The notes under the pieces: generated by a model
Database searches by the model: none
What the model was told of the DNA's origin: nothing
Seen by the model: only the letters and a program-made list of their open reading frames with translations
Origin: Streptomyces sp. NBC_01264
GTDB taxonomy: Bacteria > Actinomycetota > Actinomycetes > Streptomycetales > Streptomycetaceae
DNA length: 64,000 bases
Direction: 5' to 3'
Assembly (NCBI RefSeq): GCF_026340675.1
Contig: NZ_JAPEOX010000001.1
Span: 6,820,001-6,884,000 of the forward strand
In this document: positions 23,750-38,102 of the stretch, piece after piece
Layout of the letters: every line of letters starts with the position of its first letter
Position numbering within the stretch: position 1 is the first letter of the stretch
Program-made: the position numbers and the translations under genes

Positions 23750-23900
23750 CGTACGGGAGGCCCGAGATCGGAAGTCGACGACGGACTTGTGTCAGCTGCT
23801 CTCATCGTCTGAGCTACCGGCCGGAGCCGGGCGGGACTCGAACCCGCGACCCGCTGATCCGGAGAAGTAACCGTTGCCTGCGCACCGGGCTTCCCGTACG
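23750..23900 (-). ncRNA. Y-RNA-like element 3 (proximal to rsr) with degenerate tRNA-like module
   Basis: About 151 nt. The ends pair as CGTACGGGA with TCCCGTACG (9 bp), one mismatch, then GCCCG with CGGGC. The 5' strand repeats the block GGUGCGC-A-GG seen in the other two elements, and the 3' strand repeats CGAUCUCGGG. Inside, a canonical T arm (23847-23831, GCGGG-TTCGAGT-CCCGC) is followed by a 5-bp acceptor-like stem closed by the UNCG-type loop UCCG (23830-23817), then U-A and a D-like arm (23814-23798) whose 9-nt loop lacks the G18-G19 pair. No convincing anticodon arm precedes the T arm. The order T, acceptor, D marks a permuted tRNA mimic as in YrlA RNAs. Confidence 0.82.
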
Positions 23901-23904
23901 TGGG

Positions 23905-23977
23905 CCTCCCGAGATCAAGGTGGCGGCGGCCTGGGTTTCTCTGCAAAAGAAGGAGCCGCTGCCCGCGCACCGGGAGG
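23905..23977 (-). ncRNA. Y-RNA-like element 2, 73-nt hairpin without tRNA module
   Basis: The 73-nt segment closes with CCTCCCG/CGGGAGG (7 bp), then an internal loop, then GGCAGCGGC against GCCGCCGCC with one A-C mismatch. A 24-nt apical loop contains a small UUCU/AGAA helix. The internal-loop strands GUGCGCG and ACCUUGAUCU match the equivalent blocks of elements 1 and 3, which suggests a shared Ro60-binding core. There is no T arm or D arm. It lies 12 nt after element 1 and 4 nt before element 3 with no promoter of its own visible, so it is probably cut from a common precursor. Confidence 0.7.
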
Positions 23978-23989
23978 TGCGTGAAGAGG

Positions 23990-24125
23990 TGTCCAGAGAT
24001 CGAGGTCGGTGAAACCACGTGGTGCTCTGCCAACTGAGCTACACCGGCCCGAAGCCGGTGACGGGACTCGAACCCGCGGCCGCCCCATTAACAGTGGAAG
24101 TAGGTCTCACCTGCGCACCTGGACA
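23990..24125 (-). ncRNA. Y-RNA-like element 1 (distal) with complete circularly permuted tRNA fold
   Basis: About 136 nt. The ends pair as UGUCCA with UGGACA; after the shared GGUGCGCA / ACCUCGAUCU internal loop comes GGUGAGACC with GGUUUCACC (9 bp, one G-U). The enclosed 77 nt (24099 down to 24023) read: anticodon arm UUCCA-CUGUUAA-UGGGG (17 nt), variable region CGGCC (5), T arm GCGGG-UUCGAGU-CCCGU (17), acceptor CACCGGC, loop UUCGG, acceptor GCCGGUG, U8-A9, D arm GCUC-AGUUGGCA-GAGC (16), A26. Every segment has class I tRNA length. The anticodon position reads GUU (Asn) after U33 and before A37. There is no CCA end and no free acceptor end, so it cannot be charged in the normal way. Bacterial Y RNAs with tRNA-like modules are an established family. 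Confidence 0.88.
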
Positions 24126-24131
24126 AGGATC

Positions 24132-24137
24132 ACGCTA
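24132..24137 (-). promoter_or_regulatory. -10 box of the Y RNA transcript
   Basis: TAGCGT on the minus strand ends 6 nt before nucleotide 24125, which is independently predicted as the first paired base of Y RNA element 1. The -35 region is not close to consensus. Elements 2 and 3 lack a matching box. Confidence 0.55.
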
Positions 24138-24175
24138 GTCGCACACCCGCATCGGCTGCGAGCGATTAAAGGCGG

Positions 24176-37162: not shown

Positions 37163-37937
37163 CGGCGTGCACCGCCAGCAGCAGCGGCGTGCACATCAGG
37201 AGGCTGGCCAGGACGTCCAGGGGCCAGTGGTAGCCGCGCAGGATCAGCCCCGTCGCCGTCAGGGCGGTGAGGCCGGCCGCGAGGGGGAGGGGCCAGCGGC
37301 CCCGGGTGTACGGGCGCACGAGCAGGGCCGCGGCCACGTACGCCACGTACGCGGTGGCCGTGTGGCCCGAGGGGTAGTAGCCGGAGGCCCAGGGCTCCAG
37401 CGGGCCCGGCCGGCCGGTCCACTCCTTCAACGGGACGACCAGGGCCGGCACCAGGACCATGGCCAGCGCCGCGGCCGCCGCGCCCCGGCGGTTGCCGCGC
37501 CGGGCGGCGTGGACCACCGCGAGGAGCAGGACGGGGACCGCGACCGGGATGTTGCCGAGATCGGAGAGGCGCTGGGTGACCGCGTCGGGGACGGTGCGCA
37601 CGAGCGCCCGGCTGAGGCCGGCGTCCGGGACCAGCAGGGGCCCGGACACGAGGACCTGCCAGGTGATCAGGGCGAAGAGCGCTACGCAGAGTGCGGAGAC
37701 CGCGTAGGCCGCCGAGGTCCCGGGGAACCCGGAACGGAGAGTGGCCGGCCGCCCCGGAACAGGGGGGGTGGTTCCGGGGCGGCCGCCCGGATCGGGTTGC
37801 CGGGCGCCCCGGGGGGTTTGGGGCGTGCGGCCGTCCGATCGCTGAGGAGTGTGCGCGAACGCATGCCCAGTACGGCGCTGGGGAAGCCCGGTACTGGTGT
37901 CGCCCCCGGTTTCCCGGAAGCGGGGTGTCTCACTCAT
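37122..37937 (-). CDS. PAP2-family membrane phosphatase
   Basis: Membrane phosphatase of 271 residues of the type 2 phosphatidic acid phosphatase family. After a hydrophilic Pro/Arg-rich region of about 75 residues come five to six membrane segments. Catalytic motifs are present in order: KEWTGRP, YPSGHTATAY and RGYHWPLDV, with two catalytic His residues. Likely substrates are lipid phosphates or undecaprenyl diphosphate. ATG at 37937 with a Pro-rich N-terminus is chosen; an in-frame start at 38006 would add 23 residues. Confidence 0.88.
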   Translation of the reverse strand: MSETPRFRETGGDTSTGLPQRRTGHAFAHTPQRSDGRTPQTPRGARQPDPGGRPGTTPPVPGRPATLRSGFPGTSAAYAVSALCVALFALITWQVLVSGPLLVPDAGLSRALVRTVPDAVTQRLSDLGNIPVAVPVLLLAVVHAARRGNRRGAAAAALAMVLVPALVVPLKEWTGRPGPLEPWASGYYPSGHTATAYVAYVAAALLVRPYTRGRWPLPLAAGLTALTATGLILRGYHWPLDVLASLLMCTPLLLAVHAVIRRGSRRSAPGR

Positions 37938-38102
37938 CTGCAGAAACCGTACGGCAGCGGAAGGGGGACCGACAGCAGGAAAACGCTCCCGCCATCGGCC
38001 CCCCACACCTTCTTCACAGCGCCCGACCGTTACCCGCGGTAGTGAACGCGTGGTGATCGAAGATCGAGTCCCTGCGTTCTACCGCCTGTGTCAGACGTTC
38101 GA

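Follow-up and report, generated by a model that had tools for sequence, protein, structure and literature searches.

A predicted Ro60-linked Y RNA of Streptomyces with a complete, circularly permuted class I tRNA as its tip

Comparison with homologous loci indicates that one of the RNAs encoded next to a Ro60-like gene of Streptomyces sp. NBC_01264 is a real Ro60-linked Y RNA with a tip that, judging from covariation, folds into a complete, circularly permuted class I tRNA. The window that we analysed is a stretch of 64,000 nucleotides (contig NZ_JAPEOX010000001.1, positions 6,820,001 to 6,884,000), and all features described below lie on its minus strand. In minus-strand order, the locus consists of a NADAR-domain gene (24817-24176) directly upstream of the RNAs, three Y-like RNAs in tandem, namely, copy A (24124-23991), a short RNA (23977-23905) and copy B (23900-23750), and the gene for the Ro60-like protein (23708-22071). 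This gene encodes a 545 aa protein with a TROVE domain (Pfam PF05731, E=8e-15), for which the nearest solved structures by sequence in the PDB are the TROVE chains 9kop/9l5y (E=1.4e-28); both entries are titled 'TROVE domain-containing protein'. Copy A adjoins the TROVE gene, which lies downstream at a distance of about 280 nt, and a TROVE match is present in 98 of the 110 homologous loci of the genus that we read. Transcription of copy A is probable, given two upstream blocks that are conserved among homologues: one, delineated by comparison of 99 homologues, contains the -10-like TAGCGT (24132-24137), a putative promoter element, and the other, TTTAATCGCTCGC (24158-24170), could be the -35 region. 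The NADAR gene yields a weak match, far under the cut-off, to the NCBIfam NADAR anti-phage model; a NADAR gene is also found beside TROVE in one other locus (L177).

Copy A, with its ends placed by the outer stem, begins and ends with the two strands of that stem, GUCCAG (24119-24124) and CUGGAC (23991-23996). Inside it, the 5' strand of the Y stem, GGUGAGACC (24103-24111), pairs with the 3' strand, GGUUUCACC (24008-24016), and is followed by a UACUU linker (24098-24102) that is invariant in the 60-row alignment described below; copy B and phage Y RNAs likewise contain the motif UACUUC. The tRNA domain then opens with the anticodon hairpin, positions 29-41 (24085-24097), with the loop CUGUUAA (24088-24094) and the anticodon GUU at 34-36 (24090-24092), and continues through positions 42-43, GG (24083-24084), a variable region 44-48 of 5 nt (24078-24082), the T arm 49-65 with 5 bp and the loop UUCGAGU (24061-24077) and the 3' strand of the acceptor stem, 66-72 (24054-24060). 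Position 72 is joined to position 1 by a UUCGG loop (24049-24053), without a discriminator or CCA. There follow the 5' strand of the acceptor stem, 1-7 (24042-24048), U8-A9 (24040-24041), the D arm 10-25 with the loop AGUUGGCA and G18-G19 (24024-24039), position 26 (24023) and, as argued below, the true positions 27-28 (24022-24021). The first-pass annotation of this DNA had proposed a Ro60-linked Y RNA mimicking a whole tRNA in permuted order and had listed the T loop, the 7-bp acceptor stem closed by UUCGG and G18-G19; direct reading agrees on all of these, and the fold is borne out by comparison with homologues.

When 295 genomes of the genus were searched with the DNA, 224 had matches, many of them weak and presumably ordinary tRNAs. 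We read 110 loci, of which 30 came with the search and 80 were fetched from other listed places and mostly picked for full length, using a script that sought the order T arm, acceptor hairpin, D arm. In 99 of the 110 loci, this script identified a copy A whose anticodon arm is intact. The 11 loci without an intact copy A of the GCUC type comprise two in which the anticodon arm is lost (L019 and L090), one with a shortened loop (L049), three with copy B only (L103, L104 and L110) and five of the GUCC type (L105-L109). Alignment A1 includes 60 rows at an identity cut of about 95% (60 of 61 kept; L091, which has an unrelated 5' part, was left out). Of its 2159 cells in the named structure, 97.3% are paired, a percentage, like those of the individual helices, that is partly due to selection because the rows were chosen by the pairing of the first-pass annotation (at least 4 of 5 pairs); changes on both sides are seen in 21 of the 36 pairs. 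The pairing values were not reached in any of 500 shuffles, and slid versions of the structure pair in 35-47%.

The signal is spread over the whole molecule. The outer stem (99.7% of cells paired, double changes in 3 of 6 pairs) and the Y stem (90.0% and 7 of 9) both covary, as the basal stem of a Y RNA would, with one internal pair of the Y stem open in 43 of the 60 rows. The T arm is paired in 100% of cells, the acceptor stem shows double changes in 6 of its 7 pairs, and the D stem is invariant in A1 and shows compensatory changes in a second, broader alignment (A2, described below); compensatory changes in the anticodon arm are found in both alignments. The loop that closes the acceptor stem varies freely among homologues in length (3-9 nt) and sequence. 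RNAalifold, given the 60 homologues, predicted the permuted cloverleaf unaided. The tertiary Levitt pair between positions 15 and 48 (G15 with C48 in this genome) covaries as well, being G-C in 57 rows, A-U in 2 and otherwise in 1 in A1 (n=60), and G-C in 64, A-U in 8 and otherwise in 1 in A2 (n=73); in copy B, the counts are A-U 25, G-C 17 and other 3 (n=45). Re-joined in tRNA order, with ACCA and flanks added, all 99 homologues are called as tRNAs by ARAGORN, compared to none of 495 dinucleotide shuffles. Copy A itself scores 152.5 bits with covariance model R1, the source alignment of which includes copy A.

The minimum-energy fold of the single sequence is not the cloverleaf. We rejected this fold because its pairs between the anticodon loop and the D loop are not conserved, being present in as few as 13 of the 60 rows. 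Minimum-energy folding of the 60 rows recovers the anticodon hairpin in 16 of them and the 27'-28' pairs in 1; the corresponding counts are 38 for the D arm and 29 for the Y stem. For copy A, the energies are -47.5 kcal/mol for the cloverleaf with the chain break at 28/29, -49.9 kcal/mol with the break at 26/27 and -59.7 kcal/mol for the minimum. Energy models disfavour the 27'-28' pairs; such models take no account of coaxial stacking or tertiary contacts, and the pairs of the minimum that compete with 27'-28' are unconserved. Other readings of the same DNA were tried and discarded. A linear, D-armless tRNA read from upstream scores 26.4 bits with the Rfam tRNA model, under the gathering score, and ARAGORN calls no tRNA in the window; the native-order copy A is called a tRNA in 19 of the 99 genus loci, calls that we take to be misreadings.

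The position of the chain break differs from that originally assigned. The first-pass annotation had placed it at 26/27, reading the UU at 24099-24098 as positions 27-28; the hairpin with the loop CUGUUAA that it described is kept and covaries, so that one outcome it had named as refuting, homologues without covariation in this arm, did not occur, and the UU belongs to the UACUU motif. The evidence comes from alignment A2, which includes 73 rows, at an identity cut of about 93%, from the genus and other genomes of its class; the rows were picked by the 29-31/39-41 hairpin, so that the percentages for this hairpin are partly due to selection, and the 27'/28' pairing was not used in the choice. 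In all 73 rows, 24022-24021 pair with positions 43 and 42: the 27'-43 pair is C-G in 70, U-A in 2 and G-C in 1 (3 double changes), and the 28'-42 pair is C-G in 55, U-A in 14, G-C in 3 and U-G in 1 (17 double changes). In the earlier reading, 2 rows leave 27-43 unpaired and 4 leave 28-42 unpaired, a gap affects 27-43 in a further 2, and double changes are absent from both pairs. Within the hairpin, 30-40 is C-G in 52 rows, G-C in 14 and U-A in 7, and 31-39 takes five pair types. A contig scan in which TACTTC, G41-43 and the T loop had to match, whereas the anticodon loop and 30-31/39-40 were free, yielded at least 119 stretches from genomes that partly overlap the first set; among the matches listed, the script found 109 permuted, with the full 29-31/39-41 hairpin in 105 and one mismatch in 4, and both 27' and 28' paired in 104 of the 105. 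By these counts, the break is at 28/29, and the anticodon stem is a Watson-Crick helix nicked between 28 and 29, where the Y stem leaves. The pair counts in A2 thus refute a break at 26/27, even though the energy model alone slightly prefers it; acceptance of the re-joined copies by ARAGORN is equal with either break and does not decide between them.

The arm is conserved, whereas the amino acid identity of its anticodon is not. What had been taken for a real Asn anticodon retained in the RNA is incidental: GUU is found in 12 of the 99 genus copies, compared to CAU in 38, GAU in 21 and CUU in 14, with 12 other kinds (16 in total). In the same copies, U33 is present in 99, U36 in 92, A37 in 91 and A38 in 98, and the CUGUUAA loop of copy A carries the U36-A37-A38 motif of t6A substrates. 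Fitch changes were counted on a TROVE protein phylogeny for 92 loci, built without the RNA. There are no changes at 32, 33 and 38, 26 at 34, 24 at 35, 3 at 36 and 7, mostly to C, at 37; at other unpaired sites (16, 44, 47 and 59), the count is 16-23. Position 36 thus accounts for 3 of the 53 changes at 34-36 (p=1.5e-6 under equal rates). Positions 34 and 35 are near saturation (26 and 24 changes compared to shuffled means of 31 and 30), unlike 44 and 47 (16 compared to 28 and 17 compared to 27 with shuffled labels). Diversifying selection is one possible cause of the variation at 34-35. The strongest covariation of 34 or 35 with any other column amounts to 0.46 bits (35 with D-loop column 93) and is not complementary.

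This pattern of constraint resembles the published t6A recognition motif. In human mitochondria, according to an excerpt of PMC7102964, the motif is (C/A>U>G)32-N33-(U/G>A)34-N35-U36A37A38, and the same excerpt describes 34 and 35 as neutral for t6A in Xenopus oocytes; U36A37A38 is called universal in t6A recognition in the part of PMC9654439 used here. A strict t6A requirement is at odds with the species that lack A37: in the contig scan, among the matches listed (n=105), 33U is present in 104, 36U in 93, 37A in 85 and 38A in 102, and A37 is replaced by C or G in 20. The identities of 36 and 37 are coupled as in real tRNAs, and part of this coupling could be inherited from captured tRNAs. In a set of 99 sequences clustered at 85%, each with the 3 hairpin pairs and both 27'/28' pairs, U36 goes with A37 in 51 of 59, A36 with A37 in 4 of 5, C36 with A37 in 17 of 17 and G36 with G37 in 17 of 18 (Fisher p=2e-15 for G37, without correction for relatedness). 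The tRNA methyltransferase TrmD, as stated in a portion of PMC5372744, requires an anticodon stem loop with G36G37 and a D stem. The conserved loop bases are those read by tRNA-modifying enzymes, in line with the suggestion, made in the first-pass annotation, that the RNA might be a substrate of such enzymes, and the evolution of the arm suggests that these enzymes, rather than the genetic code, read it. If so, these RNAs would offer a natural separation of enzyme recognition, for which the bases are kept, from decoding, for which 34-35 are free.

The closest known relative is YrlA (RF02553), which has, like copy A, linkage to Ro60, a basal Y stem and, in one and the same permuted order, the T arm, the acceptor hairpin and the D arm. 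The two differ in that the Rfam consensus has a closing stem and no anticodon arm, whereas copy A has the local hairpin 29-41. Copy B (23750-23900, tRNA-like part 23857-23792) represents the canonical arrangement, with the closing stem replacing the anticodon arm, and matches RF02553 in full length with 49.6 bits (E=3.1e-10), compared to a gathering score of 69. Copy A reaches 34.8 bits over the T-acceptor-D core only (model positions 24-84); because it misses both the gathering score and the closing stem, we classify it as a YrlA variant and not as a member of RF02553 by Rfam's rule. At the gathering threshold, Rfam matches none of the three Y-like RNAs, and the YrlA matches need a loose threshold. 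The short RNA between A and B (23905-23977) has no tRNA domain and a predicted fold of -32.4 kcal/mol (z -1.73); a Y-like motif lies between copy A and the following longer RNA in 59 of 71 such pairs. According to an excerpt of PMC8394870, YrlA is similar to the D, T and acceptor arms and serves DusA and TruB as a substrate; its stem binds Rsr, and its tRNA-like part PNPase. As far as can be seen from these comparisons, copy A works like YrlA. In open-licence PMC text, where bacterial Y RNAs are described as mimics of the D, T and acceptor arms, we found none that is said to carry an anticodon arm; here, the mimicry extends to the whole tRNA.

Among the tRNAs of its own genome, which encodes tRNA-Asn in at least two ordinary genes, copy A comes nearest to tRNA-Asn(GUU), to which it is 82% identical over 61 nt. 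Copy A has every arm, segment length and conserved base of this and other class I tRNAs, as well as the 15-48 pair, so that the cloverleaf and the tertiary pairs of a functional tRNA are in place; it differs in being permuted at 28/29, in having a closed loop at the acceptor end where a tRNA would end freely in a discriminator and CCA (or a site for CCA addition), in sitting within a Y stem and in an anticodon that is unconserved. In the permuted tRNA genes of algae and archaea, the 3' half is encoded ahead of the 5' half. Copy A likewise has the 3' half first, whereas it lacks CCA, has a conserved Y stem and drifts in codon identity. Another structured RNA with a tRNA mimic is tmRNA, which has an acceptor end and no anticodon arm; copy A, conversely, retains an anticodon arm and has a closed acceptor end.

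Similar RNAs also occur elsewhere in the class. A covariance model made from the 60 rows of A1 and searched against 345 genomes of the class had matches in 308; partial matches (model positions 27-104) may stem from adjacent tRNAs that mimic the permuted order, as in the NBC_01264 genome itself, where we dismissed a candidate further copy because the match coincides with two ordinary tRNA matches. Of 40 class regions that we fetched, 8 have no convincing permuted RNA (L149, L151-L154, L158, L174 and L180) and L175 is doubtful; a TROVE match is present in 27 of the 40. In several of these regions, two or three permuted RNAs stand in a row beside TROVE, including copies with the D arm and anticodon of another isotype, such as CUC or GUC with GUCU D stems. 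Permuted mimics with GUCC D stems, which we take to be of a Glu/Asp-like isotype, occur in L105-L109 and L173, with no TROVE match within about 4 kb on either side. Among the matches listed, 15 stretches from other genera were checked and 14 have a TROVE match, including those from Planomonospora, Micromonospora, Nocardiopsis, Saccharothrix, Actinoplanes, Planobispora and Streptosporangium, with Acrocarpospora having none; the Virgisporangium stretch, with TROVE, has only one of the 27'/28' pairs. Outside Actinomycetota, permuted RNAs with TROVE are found in MAGs of Cyclobacteriaceae, Pelotomaculum and Lachnospiraceae, and Desulfosporosinus acididurans has a permuted RNA with a TROVE match of only 89 aa. 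The pattern has 51 matching stretches in IMG/VR, 36 of which also have a TROVE match, and some viral contigs carry anticodons such as AUU, a type that, to our knowledge, is absent from bacterial tRNAs. Thus, whole-tRNA mimicry appears to exist in Actinomycetota, in viral contigs and, by single examples, in Bacteroidota and Bacillota. Upstream of phage Ro60 genes, there are also arrays of UACUUC motifs, four in L212 and five in L213, in which some RNAs lack tRNA parts; in phage Kela (L217), an RNA ligase gene adjoins Ro60.

We lean, if slightly, towards the view that copy A is a tRNA-mimicking tether of the YrlA kind, bound by Ro60, or else a look-alike that holds factors off tRNAs, with the anticodon arm kept recognisable to enzymes that modify position 37. 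By analogy with YrlA, the basal stem and the UACUU motif would bind Ro60, and the Ro60-held stem would present the effector-binding tip, a complete permuted class I tRNA. The chain would enter this tip at 29 and pass through the anticodon loop, the variable region, the T arm, the acceptor stem and the D arm to 26-28, where it would exit. Because the acceptor end is closed, copy A presumably cannot be charged. The arm would be kept so that enzymes reading 36-38 accept the mimic, TsaD-TsaB-TsaE in the case of copy A, with TrmD as the corresponding enzyme for G36-G37 copies. What results would then be a stable look-alike of a mature tRNA, serving to tether factors of tRNA handling or RNA decay to Ro60 or, alternatively, to hold such factors off real tRNAs. 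With these enzymes named as candidates, the partner of the Y RNA tip becomes accessible to experiment.

Three other explanations have to be weighed against a tether with a modifiable arm. The arm could be a bait for anticodon nucleases, with Ro60 holding or reporting the cleaved bait, a decoy or sensor role that is possible and that we regard as improbable. Such a role would explain why phages place Ro60 and these RNAs inside tRNA clusters (Ro60 genes lie among tRNA genes in 4 of 9 phages examined) and agrees with the RNA ligase gene in Kela and with the listing of phage TROVE proteins with RNA repair systems in an excerpt of PMC7824862; the hypervariable 34-35 could also reflect an arms race. 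A bait for a single nuclease, however, should keep its anticodon, and 34 and 35 are the positions of the loop that change most; their free variation argues against a bait for one specific tRNA. The portion of PMC7790460 that bears on the subject reports, against the decoy, YrlA fragments as undetected in Salmonella, although YrlA, by the Rfam model, has no anticodon arm; we count the same paper as also keeping some support for the decoy. The same free variation is hard to reconcile with the notion that copy A is a permuted tRNA gene, the transcript of which would become a functional tRNA once cut at 28/29 and within the acceptor loop. All segments are there, and ARAGORN accepts 99 of 99 re-joined copies; nevertheless, this notion is scarcely credible, given the missing discriminator and CCA, the 3-9 nt acceptor loop that varies freely, the conserved Y stem flanking the break, the drift of the anticodon among amino acids, with AUU-type anticodons in viral copies, and the ordinary tRNA-Asn genes of this genome.

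The arm could, finally, be a by-product of the repeated capture of whole tRNAs into Y RNAs, retained as a stable hairpin end with a 7-nt U-turn loop that no protein reads. C32, U33 and A38 are general bases of tRNA loops, and tRNA-Asn is the nearest tRNA of the genome; furthermore, as expected from capture, D stems GUCC/GUCU go with C36 in 7 of 10 clustered rows and GCUC goes with U36 in 56 of 75. Loop stability, however, fails to explain why U36 changed 3 times beside the free positions 34 and 35 (26 and 24 changes) and why G36 is accompanied by G37 in 17 of 18 sequences. The clustered set also contains A34 loops such as CUAUUAA, so that recent copying from host tRNAs does not by itself account for the loops; such A34 loops have apparently drifted from real tRNAs with the bases at 36-38 kept. 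Taking these points together, we find it unlikely that the arm is such a by-product.

Going beyond copy A and its suggested role as a Ro60-bound tether, one could imagine that Ro60 RNPs of bacteria and phages generally display uncharged, undecodable and enzymatically matured whole tRNAs, modified or bound by TsaD-TsaB-TsaE in U36A37A38 copies, by TrmD in G36G37 copies and perhaps by MiaA in A36A37A38 copies, and that a locus with several isotype classes in tandem reports on tRNA modification and anticodon damage or acts as a bait for them. We offer this generalization tentatively and would sooner doubt than defend it.

A practical consequence is that gene finders annotate some permuted Y RNAs as tRNAs. 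Phage annotations at the positions of such RNAs include tRNA-Arg(tct) in L214 (2141-2212), tRNA-Ser(gct) in L211 (2223-2296) and tRNA-Pro(tgg) in L218 (2167-2257). Elsewhere in the window, Rfam identifies the Streptomyces sRNA Scr5676 at 37834-37939 on the minus strand, with 65.7 bits, over its gathering score.
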